Below, piece by piece: positions 2,192 to 64,000 of a DNA stretch of 64,000 bases (position 1 is the stretch's first letter; every line of letters starts with the position of its first letter). Source of the stretch: Streptosporangium album (GTDB taxonomy: Bacteria; Actinomycetota; Actinomycetes; Streptosporangiales; Streptosporangiaceae). Position numbers and translations under genes: made by a program. Below the pieces are notes generated by a model that was not told the origin of the DNA, ran no database searches, and was given only the letters and a program-made list of their open reading frames with translations. The stretch lies in assembly GCF_014203795.1 (NCBI RefSeq), contig NZ_JACHJU010000001.1:1116001-1180000 (forward strand), in the 5' to 3' direction.

Positions 2192-2307
2192 GGGCCGCCT
2201 CAGCCGGGCGGCATCGCCCCACAGCACCGCGTCGAGGCGTTCTTCGCCGGCGGTCGCGGCGGCCAGGCTGACGCCGCCTCGCCGTACGGCGCTGCGACGT
2301 GGGCCGG

Positions 2308-3069
2308 TCAGCCCATCCGGCGCAGCACCCGGGCGGCGGTCCGGGCGAGCAGTTCCACCTGCTGTCCGTCGAACTCCGCCCGGGGCCCCTGCGTGATCCA
2401 GCGGGCCACCAGGCGCGGCTTGAGCAGCGTGAGCCCCTCGGCGGTGACCGTCCGCCGGATCTTCCCGCCGTGTACGGCGAGCAGCGGTTCGATCGTGACG
2501 GGGATGCCGGACTCGCGGGAGAGCACCTGGGCCAGCGCGTCGGAGGCGTCGACGAGCGCCTTGGCCACCTTGGTGCCGTACTTCTCGCCGAGGAACAGCC
2601 GCTCGCCGTACCGGGCGATCTCGGTGTCGGGGTCCCACGCCTCGTTGTCGACGACCCAGATGCCGCCGGGGCCGATGACGAGATGGTCGATCGACGCCTG
2701 GCCGGGCACGGCGCGGCCGTCGAGGACCTGGTAGCCGCGCCTGCGGAGTTTGCGGCGGAGCAGCTTGCCGGTGATGGTCTCGCCGCGGCGCCTGCCCCGC
2801 CAGACCGCGGTGGCCTCGTAGGAGTGCCAGGCCCAGAACGCGTCGGCGGCGCCGACCAGCAAGCCGGCCAGGATCCCGATCACCGGGGGGCTGGGCAGCG
2901 CGAACCGGTAGGCGAGCACCAGGCCCGCCACCAGGCCCACTGCGGCCTTGACCATGCGCATCTTCCGGCGCTGGTCGGCGTCCTTGATCCAGAACTGCTC
3001 GTACATGACCTGGGGCGACAGGCCGTGAACCTGGTCGTCGGGCGTCACGTAGATTGATCCGCCGGGCAC
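2308..3069 (-). CDS. NERD-domain membrane-associated protein, about 253 aa
   Basis: Two hydrophobic helices (around residues 35-50 and 55-75) are followed by a cytoplasmic nuclease-related (NERD) domain with GYQVLDGRAVPGQASIDHLV and GPGGIWVVDNEAW. In NERD proteins the aspartate of IDH and an acidic-x-lysine pair form a PD-(D/E)xK-like site. Here the lysine position reads glutamate (VVDNEAW), so nuclease activity is doubtful. I chose the GTG at 3067-3069 because GGGGAG lies six to seven bases upstream; the frame stays open to 3204, but that extension has no good ribosome-binding site. It is divergent from the TetR gene. The role of actinobacterial NERD membrane proteins is unknown. Confidence 0.75.
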   Translation of the reverse strand: MPGGSIYVTPDDQVHGLSPQVMYEQFWIKDADQRRKMRMVKAAVGLVAGLVLAYRFALPSPPVIGILAGLLVGAADAFWAWHSYEATAVWRGRRRGETITGKLLRRKLRRRGYQVLDGRAVPGQASIDHLVIGPGGIWVVDNEAWDPDTEIARYGERLFLGEKYGTKVAKALVDASDALAQVLSRESGIPVTIEPLLAVHGGKIRRTVTAEGLTLLKPRLVARWITQGPRAEFDGQQVELLARTAARVLRRMG

Positions 3070-3210
3070 AGCGAACTCCCCAAGGGTCGGTGAGTGCAAG
3101 GAGACGGATCTGCGACGCTGAAGATCCCCAACTATGGAATACCCAAGTGGGGGCTCCAAGCATCCGAAGGTGACGCAACTAACACGCCTCGGATACCCGT
3201 CCATGGGTTA

Positions 3211-3224
3211 ACCGACCAGTCGGT
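3211..3224. promoter_or_regulatory. Palindromic operator upstream of the TetR gene
   Basis: ACCGAC-CA-GTCGGT is a perfect 6-2-6 inverted repeat, 33 bases before the TetR start. This size and spacing suit a TetR dimer, so autoregulation is likely. A nearly identical site lies at 16501-16516 in front of an acyl-CoA dehydrogenase gene. Confidence 0.6.
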
Positions 3225-3256
3225 ATGCTGTCCGCACCACATTTTGGGGGAGATCG

Positions 3257-3859
3257 ATGACTCAGGACCAGGAGCCGGTACGGCAGCGCCTGCTCGCCGA
3301 GGCCACCCGCCTGTTCGCCGAGCGGGGCTTCGAGAGCACCTCGGTGCAGGAGATCGTGACGGCGGCCGGCGTCACCAAGGGCGCCATGTACCACTACTTC
3401 GACTCCAAGGACGACCTGCTCCACGAGATCTACGGGCGGGTGCTGCGCATGCAGATGGAGCGGCTCACCCACTTCGCCGACGGTCCCGGCCCGCTGGCCG
3501 AACGCCTGCACGCCGCCGCCGCCGACGTCGTGCGGACCACGGTGGAGAACCTGGACGACTCCAAGATCTTCTTCCGCTCCATGCACTCGCTCGCCCCCGA
3601 CACCTACAAGAGCGTCCGAGCCGAGCGCCGCCGCTACCACGAGTGCTTCCGCGACCTCGTCACCGAGGGCCAGCGCGCGGGCACCTTCAGGGACGACACC
3701 CCCGCCGAGATCGTCGTCGACTTCTTCTTCGGCTCGGTCCACCACCTGGGCACCTGGTACAGCGCGGAGGGCCCGCTCTCGGGCGCCGAGGTCGGCGAGC
3801 ACTTCGCCGACCTGCTGCTCACCTCACTGCGACCGGATCGGCCGGCACTCCCCGGGTGA
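3257..3859 (+). CDS. TetR/AcrR-family transcriptional regulator, 200 aa
   Basis: The N-terminal DNA-binding domain is textbook TetR (residues about 8-55: LAEATRLFAERGFESTSVQE, then GVTKGAMYHYFDSKDDLL). The C-terminal ligand domain resembles the branch found with acyl-CoA metabolism regulators. ATG is preceded by GGGGGAG. A perfect palindrome sits in its own promoter, and the same motif with two changes is found 29 bases upstream of the acyl-CoA dehydrogenase at 15255-16472. The inference is that this regulator controls itself and that beta-oxidation-type cluster, with an acyl-CoA or related thioester as ligand. Confidence 0.85.
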   Translation: MTQDQEPVRQRLLAEATRLFAERGFESTSVQEIVTAAGVTKGAMYHYFDSKDDLLHEIYGRVLRMQMERLTHFADGPGPLAERLHAAAADVVRTTVENLDDSKIFFRSMHSLAPDTYKSVRAERRRYHECFRDLVTEGQRAGTFRDDTPAEIVVDFFFGSVHHLGTWYSAEGPLSGAEVGEHFADLLLTSLRPDRPALPG

Positions 3860-3945
3860 CCCTCCGCCCCACCTCGGCCCAGGCCCCGGCGCGCTCGCCA
3901 TCCGGATCGTCGACACCCTGATGTACGGCGTGGCGGCCCGACGAG

Positions 3946-4902
3946 TCACCCGCCGGCGGCGCGGGTGAAGCGGGCGCCCCACTCTCGGACGTGCTCGGCG
4001 AACTCGGGCGGGCCGAGCACCTCGAACCCCACGCCGATGCCGCCCAGGGCCTGCGCCGGCCAGTCGAGCACATCGGTGGCCATCCGTACCCGGCATCGCC
4101 GGTCGTCGACCTCCTCGACCGTCCCCCACCGGCCGACCATGGAACGGACCGTCGCCGCGGGCGCGTGCACCAGCGCCTCGACGGTGTAGGCCGGGGAGAC
4201 GTTGTCGTTCCCGGCCCGGACGAACGCCGCGGCGTCGGTGGCGGGCAGTTCGCGCGGCCGGAACCGCTCCCCGGTGCTGCGCGGATCGTCGAGCCGGTCG
4301 AGCCGGAAGCTGCGCCAGTCGTGGCGGACCAGGTCGTAGGCGACCAGATACCAGCGGCGCCCGAGCGAGACCAGCCGGTGGGGCTCGACATGGCGCGCCG
4401 TCTGCGCGCCGTCTCGCGCCGTATAGGAGAACCGCAGCCGCTCCTCGTCCCGGCAGGCCTGGGCGACGGCCGTCAGAGCCTCCGCGCCGACGGTCGGGCC
4501 GGGGCCCGAGGGGGCGGGCACCGTCACCGCGCGCAGCGCGTCGACCCGCCGGCGCAGCCTCGGCGGCATGACCTGCACGACCTTGGTGAGCGCGCTGATC
4601 GAGAACTCCTCGATCCCGGCGACCGCCCCCTGCGCGGCGGTCTGCAGCCCGATGGCGAGTGCGACCGCCTCGTCGTCGTCGAGCACCAGCGGGGGAAGCA
4701 CGGCACCGGCGGCGAGCTGGTAGCCGCCGTCGACGCCCCGGTGGGCCTCCACCGGGTAACCCAGCTCGCGCAGCCGGTCGACGTCGCGGCGCAGGGTGCG
4801 GACCGACACCTCAAGCCGGTCGGCCAGCTCGCCGCCCGGCCAGTAGCGGTGGGTCTGCAGCAGGGAGAGCAGCCGCAGCGTCCGTGAACTCGTGTTCGCC
4901 AT
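3946..4902 (-). CDS. YafY-type regulator with HTH and WYL domains, 318 aa
   Basis: Residues 5-60 form a DeoR-like winged helix (TLRLLSLLQTHRYWPGGELA, VRTLRRDVDRL). A WYL domain follows at about 140-215 with the RFSYTARDG and RRWYLVAYDLVRHDWRSFRL stretches, and a WCX-type C-terminal segment closes the protein. WYL regulators bind nucleic-acid or nucleotide-like ligands and often answer DNA damage. The gene is transcribed away from an AlkZ-like glycosylase gene, with an imperfect palindrome between them, so a local DNA-alkylation response is plausible. Length is normal and the ATG at 4900-4902 is the only sensible start. Confidence 0.85.
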   Translation of the reverse strand: MANTSSRTLRLLSLLQTHRYWPGGELADRLEVSVRTLRRDVDRLRELGYPVEAHRGVDGGYQLAAGAVLPPLVLDDDEAVALAIGLQTAAQGAVAGIEEFSISALTKVVQVMPPRLRRRVDALRAVTVPAPSGPGPTVGAEALTAVAQACRDEERLRFSYTARDGAQTARHVEPHRLVSLGRRWYLVAYDLVRHDWRSFRLDRLDDPRSTGERFRPRELPATDAAAFVRAGNDNVSPAYTVEALVHAPAATVRSMVGRWGTVEEVDDRRCRVRMATDVLDWPAQALGGIGVGFEVLGPPEFAEHVREWGARFTRAAGG

Positions 4903-4924
4903 GTCCTCACGATCCCCGCTATTC

Positions 4925-4941
4925 AGGACAGAAACTGACCT
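4925..4941. promoter_or_regulatory. Candidate operator of the WYL-regulator/glycosylase divergon
   Basis: AGGACAG-AAA-CTGACCT is a 7-3-7 inverted repeat with one mismatched pair, located 23 bases upstream of the WYL regulator start. YafY-type regulators usually act on the divergent gene and on themselves, so this is a reasonable binding site. Confidence 0.4.
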
Positions 4942-5122
4942 TTGTCGAGCCTAACGTGGTTCTCACGGCCGGGTCGAGGGTCCGATCGCGGACCATCGGC
5001 CGACCGACAAGAGGAGAAACATGACCGCCGACACGGGAACGAGCGCCCGGCGCGCCCCCGGCGACGCGGTCGCCCCCACCGCCCACCGGCGGCGCCCCCA
5101 CCACCCCCCGAGGAGATCCGAG

Positions 5123-6220
5123 ATGACCGGCACGCCGGCGCTCTCCCAGCGCGTCCTCAACCGGACGCTGCTCGAACGTCAGCTGCTGACGCGCCGTACC
5201 TCCCGCTCCGCCCTCGACGTCATCGGACACCTCGTCGCGATGCAGGGGCAGGAGCCCAACTGGCCGTACCTGGGGCTCTGGACCCGGCTGGACGGCTTCC
5301 GGCACGAGGATCTGACGGAGCTGCTCCAGGACCGGAGCGTGGTGCGCTCCACGATGGTGCGCCGCACACAGCACCTGGCCCGTGCCGACGACTTCCGCTG
5401 GCTGCGGCCGACGATCCAGCCCCTCCTCGACCGCGGCGCGCGCGCCTCCTACTACGCCGAGGAGACCGCGGGGCTGGACCTGAGCGAGCTCGCCGAAGCC
5501 GGACGGGAACTGCTGGCCGACCGGACCCTTCCCCGGCGGGAGTTCAACCGGATGCTCGCGGAACGCTACCCGGGCCGCGACGGCCGCGTGCTCGGCGCGG
5601 CGGTGGAGCTCCAGGTGCCGGTGGCGCACGGACCGCAGGCCGGTGTGTGGGGCGGCTGGGGCACCCGCTCGGGGATCCCGGTCACCGTCGCGGAAACATG
5701 GATCGGCCGTCCCCTGACGGAGGCGCGGGTCGACACGCTGATCCACCGTTACCTGGCGGCGTTCGGCCCGGCCACCGTCATGGACGTCCAGGCCTGGTCC
5801 GGGCTGACCCGGCTGCGCGAGGTGGTCGACGGCATGCGGTCACGGCTGCGGGTCCTCCGCGACGGGCAGGGCAGAGAGCTCTTCGACCTCCCCGACGCGT
5901 CCCTCGCCGAGGCGGACGCGCCCGTGCCGGTGCGGTTCATACCCGCCTACGACAACCTGCTCCTGGGGCACGCCGACCGGACCCGCGTGATCAGCGAGGA
6001 GGACCGGAAGCGGGTGATGCCCGGCAGAGCACTGGTGCTCCCCACCTTCCTCGTCGACGGCCTCGTCCACGGGACCTGGTCGGTGAAGGGCTCGACGCTG
6101 CTCATCTCGTCCTTCCGGCCGCTGTCGCGGGCGGACGGCGAGGCGGTGCTGGAGGAGGCCGGGCGCCTGCTCGCCTTCGTCGCCCCGGACGCCGCCCGGC
6201 GCGAAGTCGTGTTCACCTGA
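5123..6220 (+). CDS. AlkZ/YcaQ-like winged-helix DNA glycosylase family protein, 365 aa
   Basis: This belongs to the HTH_42 family, whose studied members (Streptomyces AlkZ, E. coli YcaQ) remove bulky alkylated or cross-linked bases. The catalytic-type QxQ is present as MQGQEPNWPYLGLW with glutamines at about 41 and 43, followed by tandem winged-helix domains and the C-terminal PAYDNLLLGHADRTR region. Two in-frame starts exist: ATG at 5123 (AGGAG seven bases upstream, fits family length) and ATG at 5021 (GAGGAG four bases upstream, adding 34 low-complexity residues). I prefer 5123 because the extension has no family counterpart. It is divergent from a WYL regulator. It could protect the host against its own or a neighbour's DNA-alkylating metabolite. 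Confidence 0.8.
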   Translation: MTGTPALSQRVLNRTLLERQLLTRRTSRSALDVIGHLVAMQGQEPNWPYLGLWTRLDGFRHEDLTELLQDRSVVRSTMVRRTQHLARADDFRWLRPTIQPLLDRGARASYYAEETAGLDLSELAEAGRELLADRTLPRREFNRMLAERYPGRDGRVLGAAVELQVPVAHGPQAGVWGGWGTRSGIPVTVAETWIGRPLTEARVDTLIHRYLAAFGPATVMDVQAWSGLTRLREVVDGMRSRLRVLRDGQGRELFDLPDASLAEADAPVPVRFIPAYDNLLLGHADRTRVISEEDRKRVMPGRALVLPTFLVDGLVHGTWSVKGSTLLISSFRPLSRADGEAVLEEAGRLLAFVAPDAARREVVFT

Positions 6221-6271
6221 GCACGGCCGGCGCCGGTCTCCCTCTTCCGGCCGGAGAGACGATCCACATTG

Positions 6272-6320
6272 CGGAATAAAGCATTCCGTTCTGATATTAT
6301 GGAACAGATCGAACCGTTCC
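6272..6320. promoter_or_regulatory. Two inverted repeats in the exporter promoter
   Basis: CGGAAT-AAAGC-ATTCCG (6272-6288) is a perfect 6-5-6 inverted repeat. GGAAC, ten bases, GTTCC (6301-6320) is a second. An AT-rich GATATTAT lies between them and could be a -10 box. They precede the DHA2 exporter, which has no dedicated regulator beside it; the controlling protein is not identified. Confidence 0.35.
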
Positions 6321-6408
6321 GCCAAAGAACCCCTCAACGCACCCACGATCGCGGGAGCACCGCTCCCCCGTGGCGCCACGTCCCCGAACGACATGCTCTG
6401 GAGGAGCG

Positions 6409-7851
6409 ATGACGACCCTCGACACCCGCCCGGCGGAAGCATCCGGACACGCCGGGGCCGCGCCGTACAAGTGGCGCTGGCCCGCGCTCTTCGTGATCCT
6501 CGCCGGTTCCGTGATGGAGCTCCTCGACGCCACCGTCACCAGCATCGCCGGCCCGACCATGCAGGCCGACCTCGGCGGCGGGACCTCGATGATCCAGTGG
6601 CTCGGCGTGGCCTACACGCTGGCCATGACAGCCGGGCTGCTCACCGGCGGGCGGCTGGGTGACATCGTCGGCCGCAAGCGGATGTTCCTCATCGGCGCGA
6701 CCGGCTTCGTGGTCGGCTCGCTGCTCTGCGCCGTCGCCGTCTCGCCGGAGACCGTGATCGCCGCCCGGGTGGTCCAGGGCCTGTTCGGGGCCGCGATGGT
6801 CCCGCAGGGGCTCGGCATGATGAAGGAGATGTTCCCGCCCAAGGAGCTGCAGTCGGCCTTCGCGGCGTTCGGCCCGATCATGGGACTGTCCGCGATCGGC
6901 GGGCCGATCCTGGCGGGCTGGCTGGTCGACGCCGACTTCTTCGGCACCGGCTGGCGCATGATCTTCCTGATCAACCTGCCGCTCGGCCTGGTCACGGTGG
7001 CGGCCGCGATGAGGTTCCTGCCCGCCACCCGCCGGTCCGGGGCGGTCAGGCTCGACCTGCCCGGCGCGCTGCTGGCCTCCCTCGGCTCGCTGCTGATCGT
7101 CTTCCCGCTGGTCCAGGGCCGCGAGCACGGCTGGCCCGCCTGGACGTTCGTGATGATGGCCGCTTCGGTGGCGGTGTTCGCCTTCTTCGGCTGGTACGAG
7201 TCGCGCAGGAGCCGCCGGGGCGGCGACCCGCTGATCGCGCCGAGCCTGTTCCGCAAGCGCGCGTTCATCGGCGGGATGTTCGTCGGCACGATCTACTTCT
7301 CCGCGTTCACCGGGTTCGGCCTGGTCTTCAACCTCTACACCCAGCTCGGCCTCGGCTACACCCCGCTGAAGGCCGGTCTGGCCGGTGTCCCGCTCTCCGC
7401 GGGCATGATCGTCGGAATGGGTGTCATGCAGGCGGTCAAGCGGCACGGCCGCAAGGTGCTGCTGGCGGGCGCCGTGATCATGGCGGCCGGCGTCGTCGCC
7501 CTCCTGCTGCTTCTCGGTCCCGAGACCGGCCCCTGGCGGCTCGCCCCCGCCCTGCTCGTCACCGGCCTGGGATCGGGCCTGGTCATGGGCCCGTACTTCC
7601 AGATCGCGCTGTCCGGCGTCGACCCGCACGAGACCGGCTCCGCCTCCGGCACGCTGACCGCGCTCCAGCAGCTCGGCGCGGCGCTCGGCGTGGCCCTGCT
7701 CGGCACCGTGTTCTTCGGCGCACTGGGCGGTGACCCCACCGTCGCGGCGCAGCACACCTTCTGGGTCGTCGCCGGCATGGTCGCGCTGACCTTCCTGACC
7801 GGCTTTCTCCTCCCCCGGTACGCCCGGGAGGACGCGGAGCCCGTGCGCTGA
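6409..7851 (+). CDS. DHA2-family MFS drug exporter, 480 aa
   Basis: ATG follows CTGGAGGAGCG, a strong ribosome-binding site. About 14 hydrophobic helices are visible. Motif A (GGRLGDIVGRKRMF) follows helix 2, and the antiporter motif C region (GLSAIGGPILAGWLVD) is in helix 5, so this is a proton-driven exporter of the EmrB/QacA type. Helix 1 carries the DHA2 motif VMELLDATVTSIAGPTM. The substrate is unknown. The gene stands alone, with inverted repeats in its promoter and a strong hairpin terminator ten bases downstream, so it is probably monocistronic and regulated by an inducible repressor encoded elsewhere. Confidence 0.9.
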   Translation: MTTLDTRPAEASGHAGAAPYKWRWPALFVILAGSVMELLDATVTSIAGPTMQADLGGGTSMIQWLGVAYTLAMTAGLLTGGRLGDIVGRKRMFLIGATGFVVGSLLCAVAVSPETVIAARVVQGLFGAAMVPQGLGMMKEMFPPKELQSAFAAFGPIMGLSAIGGPILAGWLVDADFFGTGWRMIFLINLPLGLVTVAAAMRFLPATRRSGAVRLDLPGALLASLGSLLIVFPLVQGREHGWPAWTFVMMAASVAVFAFFGWYESRRSRRGGDPLIAPSLFRKRAFIGGMFVGTIYFSAFTGFGLVFNLYTQLGLGYTPLKAGLAGVPLSAGMIVGMGVMQAVKRHGRKVLLAGAVIMAAGVVALLLLLGPETGPWRLAPALLVTGLGSGLVMGPYFQIALSGVDPHETGSASGTLTALQQLGAALGVALLGTVFFGALGGDPTVAAQHTFWVVAGMVALTFLTGFLLPRYAREDAEPVR

Positions 7852-7860
7852 CCTTCCCCC

Positions 7861-7898
7861 GGGGGTACGGCCGGCGCCCGGGTGCCGGCCGTACCCCC
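7861..7898 (+). terminator. Hairpin terminator of the DHA2 exporter
   Basis: A perfect 15-base-pair stem (GGGGGTACGGCCGGC and its complement) with an eight-base loop starts nine bases after the stop codon. There is no T-run, which is common for high-GC actinobacteria. Confidence 0.75.
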
Positions 7899-8010
7899 GG
7901 TCCGATCTCGCTCGGCGCCCACCCGGCGGGACGCACGGCGGTAAGGAAGACCGGGCTCCACTGCCTCCGACAGGCGACCACCGGCGGTGCGAGCGGGCTC
8001 GGCCGAGTGG

Positions 8011-8205
8011 TCAGACCTGGTTGAGGCCGCCGTCGACGAACAGCTCGGTGCCGGTGACGAAGCCACTCTGGTCGGAGGCGAGGAAGAGTGCGGCGGAGGC
8101 GGCCTCCTCGGGGCGCCCCGTCCGACCGAGGGGCACCTGGCCCGCGAGGTGGCCCTTGAGCTGCTCGGCCTGCTCCCGGTCGGCTTCACCCTCCAGACGG
8201 ATGGG
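8011..8205 (-). pseudogene. C-terminal remnant of an SDR oxidoreductase
   Basis: The minus strand reads [40 protein letters not shown] and [18 protein letters not shown], then stops. This is the unmistakable C-terminal quarter of a FabG-like short-chain dehydrogenase. The Rossmann fold and the YxxxK active site are absent, and upstream sequence does not continue the family, so this is a truncated gene. Confidence 0.65.
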
Positions 8206-8542
8206 TGAATGTTCCTGACGCAGGCCAGCCGGAAAATGGCACCGACCGGCGAGCATCGCGCACTGGGGACAGCGAGATGGCAGGTCGGGTAAAGGGAACT
8301 GTCGCGTTCCCATTTCGCGGCGGTGCGGGTACGGCCGGCAGAGCACGGATCTGCTGCTACGCGCGCTGGCGCCGATCCGCTCGAATGCCGGCCCGGCTGC
8401 CGGCCGCATGGCCACCGGGCCTGCGACGGGCCGTGTTCCCGGCATGATCACAGAAGGGTTGCATGTCAGGGACTCCGTTAGTCGGGACTGGAAGGGCACC
8501 GGAATACTGTCACCTCCGTTTGTCCTCCTTGAGGAGTCTCTC
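8206..8542. other. Intergenic stretch with no supported feature
   Basis: The stretch between the SDR remnant and the DUF4328-like remnant shows only short, compositionally biased frames on both strands. Nothing convincing was found. Confidence 0.3.
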
Positions 8543-47109: not shown

Positions 47110-47285
47110 GGTAGGCACCTCGTTAGGTGAGGCGTCTGTCCGGATACAGGCCACTGACCCCACGACGTCGAGAGACGCCCAGGTTCAGGACACCTCTCCC
47201 CGGCTTAAGGGGTGAGGCCAGGTGGCTTCCCGCGGACTTTTCGCGGGCATACGCCGGGCAGTGCCGAAGCTCTTACGAGATGTGG
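47110..47285 (+). promoter_or_regulatory. M-box (ykoK) magnesium riboswitch
   Basis: The conserved blocks appear in order: CGTTAGGTGAGGC, GGATACAGGCCACTG, GACGTCGAGAGACGCC, AGGTTCAGGACACCTC, the CCCCGGCTTAAGGGG turn, the P-stem CCCGCGGACTTTTCGCGGG and the closing GCCGGGCAGTGCCGAAGC with TCTTACGA. This is the actinobacterial M-box layout, which folds when Mg2+ is plentiful and shuts off magnesium transporter genes. It lies 295 bases upstream of the NRAMP-type gene on the same strand and controls it, and perhaps the MgtC gene beyond. Confidence 0.9.
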
Positions 47286-47579
47286 GGTGCGCCACCCGTT
47301 GTGGAGTGGGTTCCCCGTCGTGGATGCGGCACCGCACGGTTGCGATGCCCGGCCGGACGGAGGTGAGGATGTGTCAGGAAGCCATTCGGGTCGAAATCGG
47401 CCTGAAACCCGTGTGTCCTCATCTACCTCCGGCACGCGATAGCCACCTTTCTCGCGCCTCGCGCCTGCCTCGCCCACCCGAGTACGGCCCGCGAAGAGCG
47501 GTACCTTGCGCCCTGTTCGTGAGGAGGGCGGCTACACGCGTGCCCCTGACAGCTCGTTGCGGGCTGAGAGGGGTCCAGC

Positions 47580-55308: not shown

Positions 55309-55408
55309 AGATAACCTTCGTTATCTGGCAAGATAGCGATCACGGACCCCCTGCGAGCTGGGCGAGCGTCGTTCACTGCGAAAGCTTCGTTTCCCGGTTA
55401 TCTGGCAA
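55309..55408. repeat. GTTATCT repeats before the second tyrosine recombinase
   Basis: AGATAAC-CTTC-GTTATCT (55309-55326) is a perfect 7-4-7 inverted repeat. GTTATCTGGCAA occurs at 55320-55331 and again at 55397-55408, 24 bases before the recombinase start. A further perfect repeat GATCGCG/CGCGATC lies at 55279-55301. Confidence 0.65.
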
Positions 55409-55432
55409 CTCGGCGAACGGGAGGACCGCACC

Positions 55433-56368
55433 GTGGATCCGATCATCGTCGAGCAACTCGGCCGCGCCCACCCGCTCGCCCGGCACCTGGACGACTTTCT
55501 CACCGACCTGGCCAACGCCGGAGCCTCCTCGCATACCCGGCGCGCCTACCGCGGAGACCTGCTGCGGTTCGCCGCCCACCACGACGGCGAAATCGGCGCG
55601 CTGACCGCGACGCCGATCCGCGCCTACCTGGCCGAGCTCGCCGAGCTGTCGCCGGCCAGCCGCAAGCGCAAGCGCGCCGCCGTCGCCTCCTTCACCAAGT
55701 GGGCGGTCCGTCACGACCTGCTGCAGGCCAACCCGATGGATCGGATCGACACCGTCAAAGTGCCCAAGACGCTGCCCCGCCCGGCCAGCGCGGCCGACGT
55801 CGCCAAGGTCTTGGCCGCGATCTGCACCCGGCGCCCGCGCAAGGACCTGCCGCTGGACCGGCTGCGCGACCGGGTGCTGTTCGAGACCGCCTACGTCTGC
55901 GGCGCCCGCGCCTCCGAGGTGTGCGGCCTGTACGTCGAAGACCTGGACCTGCGCCTGGACGACGAGCACGTGCGCATCCACGGCAAGGGCGGCAGCGTAC
56001 GCACCGTGCTGCTGGACGACCGCGGCTACGTCGCACTGCTCAAGCTCTACCTGGTCCGCACCGGCTACACCGCCGGGCCGCTGTTCCGGGCCAGCATTAA
56101 CGGCGCGGGTGGGCCGCTGTCCTACGACGCCGCCCACCACCGCTGGCAGCGTTACTGCGCCGACGCCGACGTGGAGATCGACATTCACCAGCTGCGCCAC
56201 GCCCACGCCACCGAACTCATCAACGTCGGCGTCACCATCGAAGCCGTCCGCCGCCGTCTCGGCCATGCCTCGACCGAGACCACCCAGCTGTACGCGCTGC
56301 TGGACGACAAGGTCGCCGACGCTGAGATCCGCGCCGCCCGCCGACGCCGCGACCAAATGGGCCGCTGA
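55433..56368 (+). CDS. Tyrosine recombinase (XerC/D-like), 311 aa
   Basis: Core-binding domain: HLDDFLTDLANAGASSHTRR, AYRGDLLRFAAHHDGE. Catalytic domain with R in YVCGARASEVCGLYVED, K in IHGKGGSVRTVLLDD, H-x-x-R in IHQLRHAHATELINVG, H in RRRLGHASTETTQLYA and tyrosine there. Length and arrangement match XerC/XerD-type recombinases. GTG follows GGGAGGACC. It differs from the recombinase at 50322 and has its own repeat set upstream. A chromosome-dimer role is unlikely for both; each may recombine its adjacent repeats. Confidence 0.9.
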   Translation: MDPIIVEQLGRAHPLARHLDDFLTDLANAGASSHTRRAYRGDLLRFAAHHDGEIGALTATPIRAYLAELAELSPASRKRKRAAVASFTKWAVRHDLLQANPMDRIDTVKVPKTLPRPASAADVAKVLAAICTRRPRKDLPLDRLRDRVLFETAYVCGARASEVCGLYVEDLDLRLDDEHVRIHGKGGSVRTVLLDDRGYVALLKLYLVRTGYTAGPLFRASINGAGGPLSYDAAHHRWQRYCADADVEIDIHQLRHAHATELINVGVTIEAVRRRLGHASTETTQLYALLDDKVADAEIRAARRRRDQMGR

Positions 56369-56508
56369 TCAAACCTGTTCCGCTCGATGCTCATGCCCAG
56401 GCCAGCACTCCGATGCATTGACCAGGGCCAACGCGATCGCATGTACCTGGTGACAGCTTCGTTAACGACAGGCCGACACCTACGCCGCCAGTTCATCTAC
56501 AGCCTTTG

Positions 56509-58061
56509 AGGAACGAAGCACTACGGTGGTTTGTTAAGGCGGGGCGTAGAGGTCGAGGGACCGCCCCGCGGTGACGGCTGTGACCAGGGCCTGTAGTTCA
56601 GCGGGCGGGGGCCTGCTCGACCAGTTGCGCCACCAGCGTTGCAGCAGTGCGCAGGGGGTCAGCCAACCGCGGACGTAGCGGACGGCGCGGGGCCAGCACA
56701 GTGGCACGGGTGGCACTGTGGCGGTGGGCCCCCCTCTCTCCGCCGTCGGTGTCGGCCGGGGCGGGCGGGAGGTGTGGTGGCGGGACCGGATCGGCGGGCC
56801 GGGCATGCCGGCAGAAGGTGAACGCGCAGGCCACCAGGGCCCAGTGGCGGCGGATCGCGGCATCGGAGCGGACCTGGAAATCGGCCCACCCGAGTTCGTC
56901 CTTGACCTGCTTGTAGCCCTGTTCGATCCACGTCCGCAGGCCGTAGAGGCGCACGATCTCGGCCAGGCCGGCGGCCGGATGCGGGCTCCAGGCCGCACGG
57001 ACGCTCCCAGGGCGGGGCAGGTTGGTGGCCAGATACCAGGTCGCCTTGGCCGGCAGCGTCGCCGGGTCGGCGGTCGCGACGATCAGCCGGACCGCCTGGT
57101 GCGGGCCGTAGCCGCCCAAGACCGCGTCCGCGGCCCACCACACGGTGCTACGGCCATCGCGAAACCGCCGCACGACCTTGGTCCAGGCGCCCGGCGCTTG
57201 GGGACCTCCCCAGGCAAGCTCACGGGCGGCGTCGATCGGCGTGTGCGCCTCATCCACCGGAGCCCAGGAGCCCTGGTGCGGCTTGAGCGCGAGCACGAAC
57301 GGCCAATCCAGCGGCCCACAGTTCAGCGGTGAAGGCCGCATTGTCGCCGTAGGCGCAGTCGGCCACCAGCGCCCGAAACGGCACGGCGGCGGCCTGAGCC
57401 CGACCTGCCAGAGCGGCCGCGAGCTGCGGCTTGGTGCGAAATGCCGGATCGCTGCGGCCGCGAGGCAGCCGAGCGGCGGGGGTGTAGGGCACCGCGTGCA
57501 GCGGGTAGTAGACCCGCTCGTCGGCCCAGAGTGTGGTCACCGCCACGATCCCGTTCTCGATCTTCCCGACCGAGCCCAGATACTGGTGGGCGGTGTGCGC
57601 GGTGGCGGTGCCGTCCTTGCGGTCCCCGGTGTCATCGACCACCAGCACCCCGCCCGCATGCGGCGCGGTCACCGGATCGGCCCGCAGCAGCTCAAGGCGC
57701 CGGGCGTTGACTTTCTCGTGATCCCACGGCGACTCCGACTCAGAAGAACTGCAGCCGCTGCACCGCCGCATTCTGGGCCCCGACCACCGGCTCCGCACCG
57801 GCCAGGGCCGTCAGCGTCTTGTTCCGGTCCCGCGGCAACAACAGCCCGGCCAGATATTCGCGGAACCCCCGGCGCTGCGCGAGCGAGCACCACAGATCAT
57901 CGAACCGGGCCGCGTACTCCTCCAACGGACCCGGCGCCGGTGGACACGGACGCCGCGCGGTCACCACCACGACCACCCCCGAACAGCACCAACTACCCCT
58001 ATCCACCGGCTTACCGCGACATCGACCCCATGTCAACAAACCACCGTAGTGCTCCGTTCCT
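56509..58061. mobile_element. IS701-type insertion sequence, frameshifted (1553 bp)
   Basis: Terminal inverted repeats of about 29 bp run from AGGAACGAAGCACTACGG (left, 56509) to the complementary right end at 58033-58061, with two mismatches. The only gene, a transposase on the minus strand, is broken by two frameshifts. No clear target duplication could be read. Confidence 0.7.
56534..58039 (-). pseudogene. IS701-family transposase with two frameshifts
   Basis: Three frames join into one transposase. The first reads EEYAARFDDLWCSLAQRRGF to AAVQRLQFF (before about 57748). The second reads SPWDHEKVNARRLELLRADP, GVLVVDDTGDRKDGTATAHT to AELWAAGL (before about 57310). The third reads FVLALKPHQGSWAPVDEAHT, LYGLRTWIEQGYKQVKDELG. 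The DDE set would be DD in VVDDTGDRK, D in VADCAYGDN and E in WIEQGYKQVKDE. A missing base near TTCTTCTGAG and an extra G near GATTGGCC break it. Confidence 0.8.
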
Positions 58062-58119
58062 GAATGAGGGCTGATATCCCTGTTGACCTGGGGCGATGAT
58101 GGTCCCAGGGGGGATTGTC

Positions 58120-58710
58120 ATGCCGAAACTGCTACATGCGCGTCCACCGATGGACGCCGAAGAGGAACGACAGATCCGCAAGCTGGCCGGGGCCCGTCAC
58201 GCCCCGGGCGACTGGATCATGCGGGCGCAGATCATCGCGTTCAGCTGGCAGGGACTACGCACCAGCGCCATCGCCGCCAAGCTGGGCTGTCACATGCAGA
58301 CCGTGCGCGAGCGGATCGAGCGCTTCAACACCGAAGGCCTGGCCGGGCTCGGCGACCGGCCCGGAGCGGGCCGCAAACCCCGGATCACCGAGGTCGAACG
58401 CGGGCGCATCATCGCCCTGGCGCGCTCGACCCCGCCCGGACGGCTGGCCCGCGACGAGGCCGGCGACCTGGCCGCGGCCGACGAGAGCGGCCCACCGCAG
58501 TGGACGCTGGACAGCCTGACCGCCGCCGCCCGCGCGGCAGGTATCACCGTCGCGCGCAGCCAGGTCCGCCGGATCCTGCTCAAAGAGAAGGTTCGCCGGC
58601 GCCACACCCGCTCCTGGACCGAATCGACCGATCCGGACTTCGCCCCAAAAGGCACCCTCCGGGATGAAACTGGGGGTGGAGCTGTCCGTCGACGTCGGCC
58701 GGTTCATTGA
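58120..58710 (+). pseudogene. Truncated IS630-family transposase
   Basis: ATG with GGGGGGATT upstream. The N-terminal helix-turn-helix domains are intact (WIMRAQIIAFSWQGLRTSAI, AAKLGCHMQTVRERIERFNT, GLAGLGDRPGAGRKPRITEV, VARSQVRRILLKEKVRRRHT). After DPDFAPKGT, where the DDE domain (ICADELGP type) should begin, the sequence becomes unrelated. So only about 185 of roughly 350 residues remain. The break point is probably the edge of the IS5-type insertion that follows. Confidence 0.75.
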
Positions 58711-58810
58711 GATCGTTCCAACTTGAAGTTGCTGGTCAGGGGCCTGGTGTGATCCGTTGAGGGCATGCTCTGGCTGGTGGTGGGTACTGATCATGGTGGG
58801 TGATCATCGG

Positions 58811-59701
58811 TCAGCGGGTGTGTTCGGTGATGGCCAGGACCATCAGCGCGCGGAGCAGCTTGGTGACGTGGATGGCGTCCAGGCGGAGCTTGGTGAGGAT
58901 GCGCCAGGCCTTCAACGTGGCGAAGCCGTGCTCGACGGGGGCGCGTTCGGCGCTGATGAGCCGGTTGACCTGCTTTTGCGCGGGGGTGAGGGGCCTGCCG
59001 CGGGTGGCTTTGCGGCCGGTGATGATGACCGGATTGTCGTCATCGTCGTCCAGGCCGACGAAGCCGAGGTCGGCGATAGCGCCCAGCCCGGCCTCGCGCA
59101 GGCGGGCGGTGAGGCGGTTGTGCCGGGCGGTGGTGATCTCCGATGCGCGACCAGGCCGGACGGCGGAGACCCACAGCAGGTTGCCGCGGGTGTCGGTGAG
59201 CGCCACCACGAGCAGCCCGTGGGCCTTGTGCTTGCCCGAGTAGTTCCTGCGGTTGTCGGCTCCGGTGCGGCGGCGGGTGCGGATCAGGGTGCCATCCAGC
59301 AGGACGACCTCACCACCGGCTTTGGCGATCTTCTTCAGGGCGCGGTCCAGGCGGGGTGCGCGGGCGGCGAGCAGTTCGACGGTCTCCAGCATCCAGCGTC
59401 GCACGGTGGAGGCCGAGACGTTGTTGGCGCCGGCCATGTCGGCCAGGCGCTGGTCATGGCGTAAGACGGCCAGCACGATGGTGGCGATCTTCCCGGCGGG
59501 CAGTTTCCGCCAGCGCGAGCCGATGGTCTTGAGATGAGCGCGCAGCAGGTCGGCCAGGAAGGTGAGGGTTTGGGTGGACAGCGGCAGCATGCAGGAGTAG
59601 ACAGGCGAGGGCGTGTCTTCGGCGGACGTCGAAGCCTTCGACGTTGTCGATGTCGTGGTTTTGGTTGTGGTCACACGCCGCCAGGCCCCCGCCGGGGACA
59701 C
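58811..59701 (-). CDS. IS5-family transposase, about 296 aa
   Basis: Catalytic acids: D in VVLLDGTLIRTRRRTGADN, D in AIADLGFVGLDDDDDN, E in AERAPVEHGFATLKAWRIL, with GKHKAHGLLVVALTDTRGNL between, as in DDE_Tnp_4 (HARBI1-like) transposases. The N-terminal part (TFLADLLRAHLKTIGSRWRK, LPAGKIATIVLAVLRHDQRL) is the HTH domain. The true start is uncertain between GTG at 59701 and an ATG 37 codons in. It differs from the IS5-type transposase at 8741. Terminal repeats could not be located. Confidence 0.8.
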   Translation of the reverse strand: MSPAGAWRRVTTTKTTTSTTSKASTSAEDTPSPVYSCMLPLSTQTLTFLADLLRAHLKTIGSRWRKLPAGKIATIVLAVLRHDQRLADMAGANNVSASTVRRWMLETVELLAARAPRLDRALKKIAKAGGEVVLLDGTLIRTRRRTGADNRRNYSGKHKAHGLLVVALTDTRGNLLWVSAVRPGRASEITTARHNRLTARLREAGLGAIADLGFVGLDDDDDNPVIITGRKATRGRPLTPAQKQVNRLISAERAPVEHGFATLKAWRILTKLRLDAIHVTKLLRALMVLAITEHTR

Positions 59702-59778
59702 GCTCGGGATGTTTCACCCGGGCAGGGCCTGGCCAGGGGCTGCGGGAAGCGGCAGTGGGCGCAGTGGGCCGCCCGAGG

Positions 59779-60327
59779 TCAGGGGGCGAACGCGCCGCTG
59801 GGGGTCTTGCGCAGCCAGCCCCGCTCGGCCAGCCGGTTCAGCTTGGCCCGCACGCCTTCGACCTGCCCCGATTCGGTGGAAAGGCTGAGCTGGGCGCAGA
59901 TCGCCTTGCAGATGAGGGGGCCGTCGGCGGCGCGTACCGCGGCCAGTAGCGCCTGGTAGTCGGCGGGCAGCTCATCAGTGCCGGCAGCGTGGTGACGGTG
60001 CGGGATCAGCAAACCGCCGGGCACGGGCACGGACGCGGGTACGGGTACGGGTATGGGGCGCAGCTCTATCCCCTGGGAGGCCTGCTCTGCTGCCTGGGCT
60101 GGGGTGAGCATCACCTGGTAGAACGGCGTCGGCTCACCGCCGGGCTCGCCGGGTGCGTTGAGCTGCTCGGCGGGATCGTCGGCGAGGAGTTCCTTGACCA
60201 CCTGCTCGGCCACACGCAGCCGGTCCATCTCGTCTTCGGTCTCGGCCAGTTGCTCGCGCAACCGATCGGCGTGCGTGCCCAGCGCGACCAGGCGCATGGT
60301 GATGCGCTCCAGCAGCGGTGACGACAT
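59779..60327 (-). CDS. Hypothetical protein with coiled coil and winged helix, 182 aa
   Basis: Residues 1-50 are predicted coiled coil (LLERITMRLVALGTHADRLR, EQLAETEDEMDRLRVAEQVV). The middle is proline-rich (IPVPVPASVPVPGGLL), and the last 60 residues look like a winged helix (YQALLAAVRAADGPLICKAI, CAQLSLSTESGQVEGVRAKL, NRLAERGWLRKTPSGAFAP). It is 77 bases upstream of the IS5-type transposase on the same strand, so it may be the accessory ORF of that element. No named family recognised. Confidence 0.6.
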   Translation of the reverse strand: MSSPLLERITMRLVALGTHADRLREQLAETEDEMDRLRVAEQVVKELLADDPAEQLNAPGEPGGEPTPFYQVMLTPAQAAEQASQGIELRPIPVPVPASVPVPGGLLIPHRHHAAGTDELPADYQALLAAVRAADGPLICKAICAQLSLSTESGQVEGVRAKLNRLAERGWLRKTPSGAFAP

Positions 60328-60543
60328 GGCTTCCCCCGGCCGACAAGACAACGATTACCTGGCGAGATCACCAGGACACGGACGATAACGACCCCAGGCC
60401 GGGCAGCGCAGACGAAAGCCGGAAGATCCACATTTGCCCCCGGCGGACGATCGAGACCCATGATCCCAGCCGTCTACCAGGAGAGAGCACACTCAACACC
60501 GCCAGGCCACCCCCTCCGACCTGCGAGGACAGGATGGAACTAG

Positions 60544-61957
60544 TAGGGCTTGGTTACCTCGGGTAGGGGACGGTATGTCACCTGTTTGGGGGTGAGGGAA
60601 GATGACCCCTCAAGAACTCGAGGCCGTGCGGGCGCGGCTGGAGACGTTTGCCGCTGAGATGTTCTCCGGTTTCGCCCGTGCTGATCAGCGGCGGTGGGGC
60701 GAGCGGTATGTGCGCGGCCTGCTGACCGACGGAGCGCGGAAATCGATGGAGCCGATGGCGGCCCGGCTGGGCGTGGACCGCCAAGGGCTGCAGCAGTTCT
60801 GCACCGATGCCCCCTGGTCGCATCAGCTGGTTTTGGCCGAGCTGGCCTGGCGGATGGACGCGGCGATCAACCCGGCCGCCTGGGTGGTCGATGATGTGTC
60901 CTTTGTCAAGGACGGCCAGGAGTCGCCGGGCGTGGCCGCGCAGTATTGCGGGGCGCTGGGCAAAACCGCGAACTGCCAGGTCGCGCCGAGCGTGCATCTG
61001 GTCACCGACGCCGCCTCCTGCCCGGTGAACTGGCGGCTGTTCGTGCCCGAGCAGTGGGATCCGGCCTCACCGCGCACGGAGGATCCGGCCGCGGTGGCGG
61101 CACGCCGGCAGCGCTGCCGGATCCCCGCCGACGTCGGTCATGTGCCCAAGTGGCAGCTGGCTCTGGACATGATCGACGAGCTGGAGAGTTGGGGGCTGGA
61201 TCCGCCGTTGGTGGTCGCCGATGAGGGCTACGGTCAAGACGGGGCCTTTCGCCTGGGCCTGACCGAGCGCGATATTCCCTACGTGGTGGGGGTGCGTTCC
61301 GATACCGCGCTGCTGGAGGCCGAGGCCTGCCGCAGCGTCGCGCCGTATGCGGGGACCGGGCGGCGGCCGGTGCCCCGCTACCGGCAGCGGCGCATCAGCG
61401 CCCGGCAGTTGGTGCTGGAGGGCGGGCGGCGCGCGCTGCACACAGTGCGGTGGCGGATGGGGTCCAAGGGGCCGTTGCGCTCGCGCTTTGCCGCGCTGCG
61501 GGTACGGCCGGCGGGCGTGCGGATCCGCCGCGCTTACGCGGGCGGGGAGTTGCCGGTGTGCTGGCTGCTAGCCGAATGGCCGCCCGGTGAGCCGGAGCCG
61601 GTCAAGTACTGGTTGTCCACGCTGGAGGCCGATGTTCCATTGCGGCGTCTGGTGGGTCTGGCGAAGATCCGCTGGCGCATCGAGCACGACTACCGTGAGC
61701 TGAAGACCGGCCTGGGCCTGGACCACTTCGAGGGTCGCACGTGGAGCGGTTGGCATCATCACGTCACCCTGGTCTCGGTCGCTCACGCGTTCTGCACCCT
61801 TGAAAGGCTCAACCCAAAAGCGCCGGCTGCGGCTTGAGCACCTACCGGGTCATCGCCGAGTTGCAGCTGCTTCTGGCCTGCTGGGCCGGTATCTGCCCCA
61901 CCTGCCGCCGCGCGTTACCCAGACATGCCCAGCCCGTCCCCACCTAACCAAGCCCTA
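60544..61957. mobile_element. IS701-type insertion sequence, apparently complete (1414 bp)
   Basis: TAGGGCTTGGTTA (60544-60556) and its complement TAACCAAGCCCTA (61945-61957) are the ends. Both are flanked by CTAG (60540-60543 and 61958-61961), the CTAG target duplication expected for IS701-group elements. It carries one intact transposase gene. It adjoins, and probably cut off, the 5' part of the group II intron to its right. Confidence 0.88.
60602..61837 (+). CDS. IS701-family transposase, 411 aa
   Basis: Full length, with DDE residues in AWVVDDVSFVKDGQES (D), PLVVADEGYGQDGAF (D) and IRWRIEHDYRELKTGLGLD (E). The N-terminal FAAEMFSGFARADQRRWGER is the usual start of the family. ATG follows GGGAAG. 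It differs from the frameshifted IS701 transposase at 56534 in sequence and length, so the two elements are separate arrivals. Likely active. Confidence 0.9.
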   Translation: MTPQELEAVRARLETFAAEMFSGFARADQRRWGERYVRGLLTDGARKSMEPMAARLGVDRQGLQQFCTDAPWSHQLVLAELAWRMDAAINPAAWVVDDVSFVKDGQESPGVAAQYCGALGKTANCQVAPSVHLVTDAASCPVNWRLFVPEQWDPASPRTEDPAAVAARRQRCRIPADVGHVPKWQLALDMIDELESWGLDPPLVVADEGYGQDGAFRLGLTERDIPYVVGVRSDTALLEAEACRSVAPYAGTGRRPVPRYRQRRISARQLVLEGGRRALHTVRWRMGSKGPLRSRFAALRVRPAGVRIRRAYAGGELPVCWLLAEWPPGEPEPVKYWLSTLEADVPLRRLVGLAKIRWRIEHDYRELKTGLGLDHFEGRTWSGWHHHVTLVSVAHAFCTLERLNPKAPAAA

Positions 61958-61961
61958 CTAG

Positions 61962-63141
61962 CTCATTGGCGGGGAACTCCTCGGGACCATGTGAACCACC
62001 CCGGGGAGGCCACGACGAAGGTCTGCGGCGTAGTCGTGGCGATGCCGCAGGGGTAGAGCTGGACGCCTCACCTGTCGATCGACTTCGTGACGAACGTGGG
62101 AACCGTCCGGTGCCGCCCTCGCCCCGCGCGGCCAGCGTGGCGGAAGGGCAGGCGCGACGTCTGCTGATGGCATCGGGCGGGGCGGAGGCTCCGTAGTAGT
62201 CCGAGGCCGGGAAAGCCGGCCACATGGCGAAGGGAGCCAGCAAGTCAGTGGTGGAAGTACTGGAAGACCAGGAGGTTCGCTGGTGAATACGAGTGATCCG
62301 TCGTGGGGCCTGTTGAGGGCCGAGCGACGGGTACTGGAGATCCAGACCAAGCTGCACCGTTGGGCGACCGATGATCCTCATCGTCGGTTCGACGATCTGT
62401 TCAACCTCGTCACCGATCCCGGCTTTCTGCTGATGGCTTGGGAGCGGGTTGCGGGGAACAAGGGCGCACGCTCGGCCGGAGTCGACGGGATAACCGCCGC
62501 CTTCGTCCAGGAACGGATCGGGACTGAACAGTTCCTGGAGGAGTTGCGTGAGCAGCTCAGGAACCAGACGTTCCGGCCCGTTCCGGTCAGAGAGCGGATG
62601 ATTCCCAAGCCGGGGACGCGCAAGCGCCGCCGTCTGGGGATCCCGACGATCGCCGACCGGGTGGTCCAAGCGTCCTTGAAGCTGGTGCTGGAGCCGATCT
62701 TCGAGGCGGATTTCCTTCCGTGCTCGTATGGGTTCCGGCCGAACCGGCGAGCGCACGACGCGATGGCCGAGACGCGCTTCCTGGCATCCAAGACCTACGA
62801 ATGGGTACTGGAGGGCGACATCAAGGCCTGCTTCGACGAGATCTCGCACCCGGCCCTCATGGACCGGGTGCGCGGACGGATCGGGGACAAGCGCGTGCTC
62901 GCGCTGGTAAAGGCGTTTCTGAAGGCGGGCATCCTCACCGAGGTCGGCACGTCCAAGGAGACCGTCACCGGCACCCCGCAAGGAGGGATCTTGTCTCCGC
63001 TGCTGGCCAACGTGGCTCTCTCGGTTTTGGACGAGCACTTCGTCCAGGCACCGGGCGGAGCGCGTTCGACCACGAAACAGCGCTGGACCCGCCGCCAGAA
63101 GGGGCTGCCCAACTACCGGTTGATCCGGTACGCGGACGACT
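61962..63141 (+). mobile_element. Group II intron 1 (5' truncated, interrupted)
   Basis: The intron-encoded reverse transcriptase starts at 62283. Upstream, GAACGTGGGAACC (62092-62104) and GTAGTAGTCCG (about 62193) are shared at similar spacing with intron 2 (63506-63518; about 63632), so part of the ribozyme is here. No GTGCG-type 5' end is found before the IS701 end at 61957, so the IS probably removed it. The intron is broken at 63141 by intron 2 and continues, if at all, beyond the window. Confidence 0.6.
62283..63141 (+). pseudogene. Group II intron reverse transcriptase, split at YADD
   Basis: RT blocks in order: GNKGARSAGVDGITAAFVQE (RT1), FRPVPVRERMIPKPGTRKRR with LGIPTIADRVVQASLKLVL (RT2), SYGFRPNRRAHDAM (RT3), WVLEGDIKACFDEISHPAL (RT4), TGTPQGGILSPLLANVALSV (RT5-6 entry) and LIRYADD (RT5 active site). 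It breaks after YADD plus one base of the next codon, where GTGCGCC begins. The maturase and DNA-binding parts are not visible. The open frame runs 35 bases on into intron 2 sequence. GTG at 62283 with GGAGG upstream. Confidence 0.85.
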
Positions 63142-64000
63142 GTGCGCCACGAACGCTGATGGAGGTTGTGATGTAGAAGATCGCGAGCTTCGGATGCGGT
63201 GCTGTGCTGGTGATGGAGGTAGGTCCTCCGGGATCGCTCACGCAGGGGGAGGTCCCAAACCACCGCGAGTTGCTGCGGCTCAATGGCCGTGGTGGTGAGC
63301 GTCGCGGAAAAGGCGCACGAGATGCGTCAGGTGTGAGCCGAGAAGGCGAACGAGAGTGAACCACTGATGAAACGTCGAAAGCGTAGCGGCGTCATCGAAA
63401 CCGGGGTCCAGTTGTTGCCCCGGGATGAGCCTGGCGGGTGCCTGCTTGCTGGCCAGGTGGTGACCGGCGTCAAGGTGGCGCGAGTTCGGCTTGGGCGCCA
63501 GTACGGAACGTGGGAACCTGCCGTCTCAGCGGTGTCGGGCGCGTGTTGGAGCGTCCGGCCGAAGGGAGTACCCCAAGCAGCGGACACTGCAAGGGGCCGA
63601 GTACCGGGGCGAGGCGGAGGGACGGACCGGCTCGTAGTAGTGCAGAAGCGCCGTAATGGGCGTGGAGCGAAGGGGCCGGGTCGCCCGGAGTCGCTTGGTG
63701 GTCAACCGGCTGGTCATCCGATCGGGCCGGGAGGAGCCAGGTGAGCGAACTCAGGCAGCAGGACAAGCCGTTTCAGATCGACAAGTGGAAGGTCTGGGAA
63801 GCGTTTCAGAGAGTCAAGGCCAACAAGGGGGCGGCGGGGGTCGATGAGGAGTCGATCGCGCAGTTCGAGGCCGATCGGGACCGGAATCTGTATCGGATCT
63901 GGAACCGGTTGTCCTCAGGCTCGTACTTCCCGCCGCCGGTGAAAGCGGTGGAGATCCCCAAGCCGCAAGGGCGAGGGGTGCGGGTGCTGGGCGTGCCGAC
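63142..64000 (+). mobile_element. Group II intron 2, inserted in intron 1
   Basis: It begins GTGCGCCACGAACG at 63142, the GUGCG-type 5' end of bacterial group II introns, directly after the bases for YADD and one T. About 600 bases of non-coding, structured sequence follow before its own reverse transcriptase at 63741, a normal distance. The 3' end lies outside the window. Confidence 0.75.
63741..64000 (+). CDS. Group II intron reverse transcriptase (3' end outside window)
   Basis: GTG follows GGGAGGAGCCAG. The protein begins SELRQQDKPFQIDKWKVWEA, FQRVKANKGAAGVDEESIAQ and continues with NRLSSGSYFPPPVKAVEIPK and GRGVRVLGVP, the RT0-RT2 region of group II intron proteins. It differs from the first RT, so intron 2 is a different family and not a self-copy. 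It is cut by the window end at about residue 86. Confidence 0.85.
   Translation, partial: MSELRQQDKPFQIDKWKVWEAFQRVKANKGAAGVDEESIAQFEADRDRNLYRIWNRLSSGSYFPPPVKAVEIPKPQGRGVRVLGVP

Follow-up and report, generated by a model that had tools for sequence, protein, structure and literature searches.

The window analysed here (64,000 nt, positions 1116001-1180000 of contig NZ_JACHJU010000001.1 in the 9.02-Mb genome of Streptosporangium album) ends in a nested group II intron, or twintron, in which one group II intron lies inside the reverse transcriptase (RT) gene of another, at the codons of the catalytic YADD motif. Judging from the comparison of its copies, the inner intron is very probably a mobile group II intron whose exon-binding sites EBS2 and EBS1 form base pairs with the YADD codons in the RTs of other introns and which retrohomes there. 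Nine copies of it were found in the genome, every one situated one base after the YADD or FADD codons of an outer group II RT, and the pattern TWYGCNGAYGAYNGTGCG matches the genome at exactly these copies; since nine copies share one codon and the pattern occurs at exactly nine places, the arrangement is not due to chance. A sequence-only reading of the window had proposed the twintron, with the outer RT normal as far as LIRYADD and a GTGCGCC start one base later. The junction is indeed at 63141/63142, both ends of the inner intron were found, and the outer RT resumes after it. Its suggestion that one intron family homes into the active-site codons of another agrees with the nine copies at the same codon; the recurrence and the guide pairing were not visible to it.

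Boundaries and domains of the inner intron

The 5' end of the inner intron, GTGCGCC, is a GUGYG-type start, and its D1-D4 core is matched by the covariance model RF01999 (Table 1), as anticipated for the region from 63142 onward. The second RT gene, noticed earlier downstream of this start, belongs to the inner intron; its product is matched by TIGR04416 (391 bits), PF00078 and PF08388, and it does differ from the outer RT (39% identity over 197 aa). Domain V/VI (DV/DVI), expected past position 64000, is present after the inner RT as an RF00029 match (full model, 52.3 bits) at 5013-5088 of locus L009, the window copy (locus position = window position - 59999), and finishes exactly on the 3' boundary. 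The predicted fold of this domain has a z of -6.4 and an A bulged 7 nt from the intron 3' end, the putative branch point.

The intron ends in ...CCTACTCTCC, and the outer RT then resumes with TCGTCATT. This boundary is fixed because all nine copies and two empty sites, described below, agree on it. An end at ...CCTAC, with the usual AY, was rejected; it leaves the outer RT out of frame, and the copies and empty sites put the end five bases 3'. A simple chimeric junction without an intron end is ruled out, as both ends have been located. Joined in silico (slash, junction), the window locus reads GAC GAC T/TC GTC ATT, translated as DDFVI, which gives YADD/FVILVSG and a frame open to the C terminus. 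The outer RT had been predicted to continue with a TC completing YADDF and then a maturase domain; both are present, the latter as a GIIM domain (PF08388) in the outer 3' half, which begins at L009 5089 (window-equivalent 65088), beyond the window edge. Across the genome, the joined outer RT frames are open over the junction in types A, B, C (L014) and D (see below), and remain open for about 190 codons past it in A, C (L014) and D.

Copies, outer types and empty sites

The nine outer introns fall into four types: A (L009 in the window, L010 and L011), B (L012), C (L013, L014 and L015) and D (L016 and L017). The protein identity of their 5' RT halves is 72% between A and B, 66% between A and C, 62% between B and C and 41-46% between D and the others, while each of them shares 36-39% with the inner RT. 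The inner intron is 1,946 nt long in the six uninterrupted copies and shows 0-2 nt differences from the window copy over the aligned parts; its RT is complete in seven of the nine, and DV/DVI was found in all nine. Near-identical inner introns in diverged outers are what a recent invasion of already separate hosts would leave. In Thermosynechococcus elongatus, identical inners in the diverged outers TeI3/TeI4 were read as recent independent insertions (Mohr et al. 2010, PMC2882425). A census of the genome with TIGR04416 gave 47 matches, among them the nine inner RTs and the nine outers, the latter broken at profile position 215-216.

The insertion target is TACGCGGACGACT^TCGTC (^, insertion point). 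Two uninterrupted type C copies (L023) are the same as L014 over 1,000 nt upstream and carry the empty site GACGACT^TCGTCGTA.

It might be argued that the nest formed only once and that later spread carried outer and inner together, by mobility of the outer intron, transfer of insertion sequences (IS) or recombination, the inner intron having no special affinity for YADD. The three type A copies are all filled and 100% identical over the outer 5' side and the inner, as if a composite had moved, and L013-L015 have sequence in common immediately upstream of outer C. However, near-identical inners occupy the same codon in outers with protein identity down to 41%, type C copies exist empty, the guides pair with the YADD codons, and a distant intron has the same insertion in Bradyrhizobium. 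Spread as a unit is thus an unlikely account of the distribution among types, although it may explain the copy number within type A.

Pairing of the guides with the YADD codons

Intron windows were scanned against 5' exons in 18 copies forming five groups, of which groups A and D represent the same intron at different sites. The best pairing joins intron nt 269-274 with exon positions -6 to -1 (0.902 of positions); among pairings separate from it, that of nt 239-244 with exon positions -13 to -8 scores highest (0.715). In type A, EBS1 (AGUUGU) pairs 6/6 with ACGACU, the Asp-Asp codons, including one G-U pair, and EBS2 (GCGUA) pairs 5/5 with UACGC, the Tyr-Ala codons; the same scores are reached at the B and C sites. 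EBS1 covaries with its target: sublineages at other exons carry other EBS1 sequences fitting their own exons, with group means of 5.0-6.0 of 6 for own exons and 0.2-4.0 for the exons of other sublineages. Both the EBS1-IBS1 (intron-binding site) and the EBS2-IBS2 pairings of group II introns are present. For EBS2 the pairing is unconvincing in sublineage X (L018-L020). At YCDD, the corresponding motif of the inner RT itself, pairing is poorer (5/6 and 3/5), which may protect the inner RT from self-insertion.

The same insertion in other organisms

On plasmid pK03D-2 of Bradyrhizobium elkanii (L133), an RF01999 intron lies within the RT of another RF01999 intron, with both junctions present (ERYADD on the 5' side, VICHC on the 3' side) and two RF00029 matches in order. 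Plasmids of Shigella and some of E. coli match the Bradyrhizobium YADD flank and intron start at about 74%, covering 93% of the query.

Single junctions were found in three further actinobacterial records. A plasmid of Streptomyces sp. NBC_01454 (L132) has the 5' junction only, CRYADD/GTGCGCC, with 75.7% identity over the aligned stretch; the outer 3' half was not seen in the 600 nt beyond the further group II sequence into which domain VI runs. That further sequence follows domain V of the YADD-nested intron at about 5955-8511 and includes RF02012, ltrA (6628-8451) and a second RF00029 match. In a Pseudonocardia metagenome-assembled genome (MAG; L054, 84% RT identity) and in Acrocarpospora macrocephala (L060, 95.7% over 516 nt), outer RT sequence follows the intron 3' end, giving the 3' junction only; the L060 intron has an insertion before its last 25 nt.

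The RT tree has 37 rows, namely the 48 loci tried, less 12 without a long enough RT, plus the L133 outer; L058, from a Clostridium MAG, and the L133 outer are long branches in it. The window, Pseudonocardia and Streptomyces introns group together (96/91), and the Bradyrhizobium intron joins a Mesorhizobium intron of another target (99/95). A single YADD clade is rejected by the approximately unbiased test (p-AU 1.3e-33 for five rows, 3.5e-6 for six rows including L058), and it follows that the guides had more than one origin or more than one exchange. The minimum number of target changes on the tree is three, with L058 counted as YADD. The junction of L058 has YADD-like DNA, but the gene there is not RT-like and matches nothing in Pfam. 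The four introns that combine a YADD junction with a known 5' part, L058 among them, each have GCGTA and GTYGT at the EBS positions; in L132 the automatic EBS2 call was off by one, and the letters were read by eye. Shared EBS letters in separate lineages could reflect convergence or exchange of domain I. At L033 1501-1529, FADD-like DNA is followed by the 16 nt with which the inner intron begins, with no group II match above threshold.

Relatives at other targets

When 394 genomes of the class were scanned for the YADD pattern, 36 of the 393 other genomes gave matches, and none of the 30 matches checked by tblastn had the inner RT. DNA searches found relatives of the intron in 79 of 345 genomes of the order and in 23 of 394 of the class at E <= 1e-20, with the own genome included in both counts and two first-look candidates scored per genome.

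Pfam searches of flanking open reading frames (ORFs) covered 20 relatives, chosen by hand from 41 loci with a leaning towards transposase-like ones. Transposase or integrase-core matches were obtained for five of them (L103, L120, L078, L112 and L092), the introns of L078, L112 and L092 being antisense to these genes, and a Homeodomain-like match over the cut-off for L071. The flanking ORFs of the other 14 gave no transposase, integrase-core or Homeodomain-like match; L108 has a sub-cutoff HTH_32. Loci L134 and L137 have what we take to be IS630 and IS6 motifs, for which no Pfam support was obtained. In Micromonospora sp. CB01531 (L055, about 1680-3612), one RF01999 intron apparently interrupts the RT of a second such intron at a conserved stretch other than YADD (WNR / SSGTYFPP).

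Proposed mechanism and the points that weigh against it

Inteins and homing introns favour conserved host sites. The inner intron would retrohome one base after YADD in any outer intron having the site. Its splicing would restore the intact outer frame, and the host need not be killed. Since the catalytic motif is interrupted, the outer intron would need the inner to splice: full-length host RT would come only from RNA from which the inner had been removed, making the host dependent on it. The host could not alter the YADD codons without losing RT activity, and the target would be hard to escape; the role of YADD in RT is treated in PMC4424553. Splicing, retrohoming and host dependence are here inferred from sequence comparison. 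The earlier claim that the insertion disables the host unless the inner splices out stands as far as the frame is concerned, which is restored in silico; in the window copy, however, splicing would not revive the outer intron, which lacks its first 281 nt, whereas those of L010 and L011 are complete.

Several observations weigh against homing to YADD as proposed. Both L023 copies are empty despite a perfect site, and RTs with imperfect sites are empty as well (L021/L022, L096-L099). Type D sites pair only 5/6 and 4/5, and the EBS1 pairs of the Streptomyces and Bradyrhizobium introns are 5/6. Perfect pairing occurs at 23 of 480,448 positions of the own-genome loci, at most nine of which are the filled or empty A-C sites; pairing alone is insufficient to define the target. 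Among relatives elsewhere, a 5' end was placed for 42, and none of these is at YADD; placement was automatic (23/29 and 19/28 non-own loci) and took the nearest GTGYG, some of which may be wrong. Damage also counts here: three of the nine inners (L015, L016 and L017) hold further insertions with ORFs transposase-like by eye, and four of the nine outers show damage other than the insertion of the inner (L009 shortened, L012 cut in its 3' half, L013 with a broken frame, L015 interrupted). Such damage would suit copies that are mere remnants, their inner introns no longer splicing and every outer inactivated, but the preservation of the inner RT in most copies, of DV/DVI in all of them and of the long joined frames in A, C (L014) and D makes this improbable.

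Nesting levels and the chimeric type B

A complete twintron is present in L010 (outer 1540-5648, inner 2999-4944), with both boundaries of each intron defined. Its outer A interrupts an IS110 transposase gene; the joined flanks form a 406-aa open frame, and DEDD_Tnp_IS110 was found in the 3' exon (PF01548, 9.4e-26). L011 is arranged likewise, with a complete outer A within an IS110 transposase gene (Pfam was run on L010 only). By its sequence, the whole is a three-level nest of IS110, outer intron and inner intron.

Type B has a 5' half like that of type A and a 3' half in which PF01348 takes the place of PF08388, joined in frame at the inner intron; the frame stops where a stretch repeated in other loci starts. 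The two RT classes would have been joined either by recombination through two inner introns or by misassembly. A misjoin over a 1.9-kb repeat could produce such a locus, and the entire set of nests might in principle be an assembly artefact in which identical inner repeats connected unrelated flanks. We consider this very unlikely, as the A, C and D halves match in eight loci, frames join in phase, and the same junction occurs in the empty sites and in records of other organisms.

Beyond retrohoming to YADD, we tentatively suggest, at slightly less than even chance, that homing into key codons of the enzymes of other mobile elements is the way of life of this intron family. Separate lineages (Actinomycetota, Alphaproteobacteria, perhaps Bacillota) would have gained YADD guides on more than one occasion, by evolution or by exchange, with sister introns in transposase genes, some presumably at catalytic motifs. 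In this genome, chains of dependence would run from IS110 transposase through outer to inner intron, and recombination between shared inners would shuffle RT halves between outer classes, as in type B.

Comparison with known twintrons

The parallel with Thermosynechococcus drawn by the sequence-only reading is a loose one. In T. elongatus an inner group II intron likewise lies at a conserved site inside the outer intron ORF (PMC2882425), but it is ORF-less, mobilisable by the protein of the outer, and inserted between two outer start codons, such that the outer RT can start after it. The S. album inner has its own 427-aa RT, sits in the catalytic motif at YADD and occupies outers of different types, and does not belong to the T. 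elongatus type. Trichodesmium erythraeum has a bacterial twintron with an ORF-containing inner, whose sequential splicing was shown by experiment (PMC4649490, Pfreundt & Hess 2015); it is, however, a single case, with the inner in domain I of the host intron and not in its RT gene. In the plastid mat1f twintrons of Porphyridium purpureum (PMC4476101), one inner occurs in two different outers at the same site, but those outers have truncated protein remnants only, the site is described as lying in domain IV and not at the YADD codons, and the inner is also found alone in atpB. Group II introns repeatedly homed into group II introns in Methanosarcina acetivorans, where nests of up to five are described; the accessible portions of PMC4424553 and PMC2882425 do not mention an RT-motif site.

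A search of the open-access literature, outside which most subscription papers lie, revealed no earlier description of an intron inserted into the YADD codons of a different RT. What sets the present nests apart from the known twintrons is that the site falls on catalytic codons, that the inner intron encodes an RT itself, that the outers span several types and that the insertion recurs in unrelated bacteria. Apparently, an RNA guide directs one retroelement to a conserved site of others, the catalytic codons of their enzyme. As a single genome offers both occupied and vacant natural sites of the same outer intron, experiments could address directly whether nested introns tame their hosts, depend on them or ride on them. 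Introns held in common could also reassort the halves of bacterial proteins. By its own description, one published pipeline for introns is unable to recognise the outer member of a twintron (PMC8919778), and for this reason such nests may be under-reported.

Features of the window

The features are listed in Table 1. The first 281 nt of outer A (L010 1540-1820) are absent from the window copy, and L010 601-1860 has no further match in the window; the outer intron 3' end is at window-equivalent 65791. As its 5' end is missing beside an IS element, the outer intron of the window is probably dead, and the inner intron in it is intact.

Table 1. Features of the twintron locus and the adjoining IS element, in window positions.
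Feature	Position	Strand	Remarks
Outer group II intron RT (type A), 5' part	62283..63141	+	GTG start at 62283, through LIRYADD and the first base (T) of the next codon
Outer intron type A, remaining 5' side	61964..63141	+	similarity to L010 begins at 61964
Inner group II intron, in-window part	63142..64000	+	begins GTGCGCC; full length reaches window-equivalent 65087
Inner RT/maturase, start	63741..64000	+	427 aa in full; TIGR04416, RVT_1, GIIM
RF01999 group-II-D1D4-2 match, inner intron	63215..63332	+	102.7 bits
IBS2 TACGC (Tyr-Ala codons of YADD)	63129..63133	+	guide pairing analysis
IBS1 ACGACT (Asp-Asp codons of YADD and next base)	63136..63141	+	guide pairing analysis
EBS2 GCGTA (inner intron nt 240-244)	63381..63385	+	guide pairing analysis
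EBS1 AGTTGT (inner intron nt 269-274)	63410..63415	+	differs between sublineages in step with the exon
IS element, inverted ends CTAGTAGGGCTTGG, adjoining the shortened outer intron	60540..61961	+	DDE_5 transposase ORF 60602-61837 (Pfam)

The stretch 55400-61961 is rich in mobile elements, with integrase- and transposase-like ORFs recognised by eye, the Pfam check covering 60602-61837 only. An M-box magnesium riboswitch (RF00380, 126 bits) is located at 47112-47288 on the + strand.
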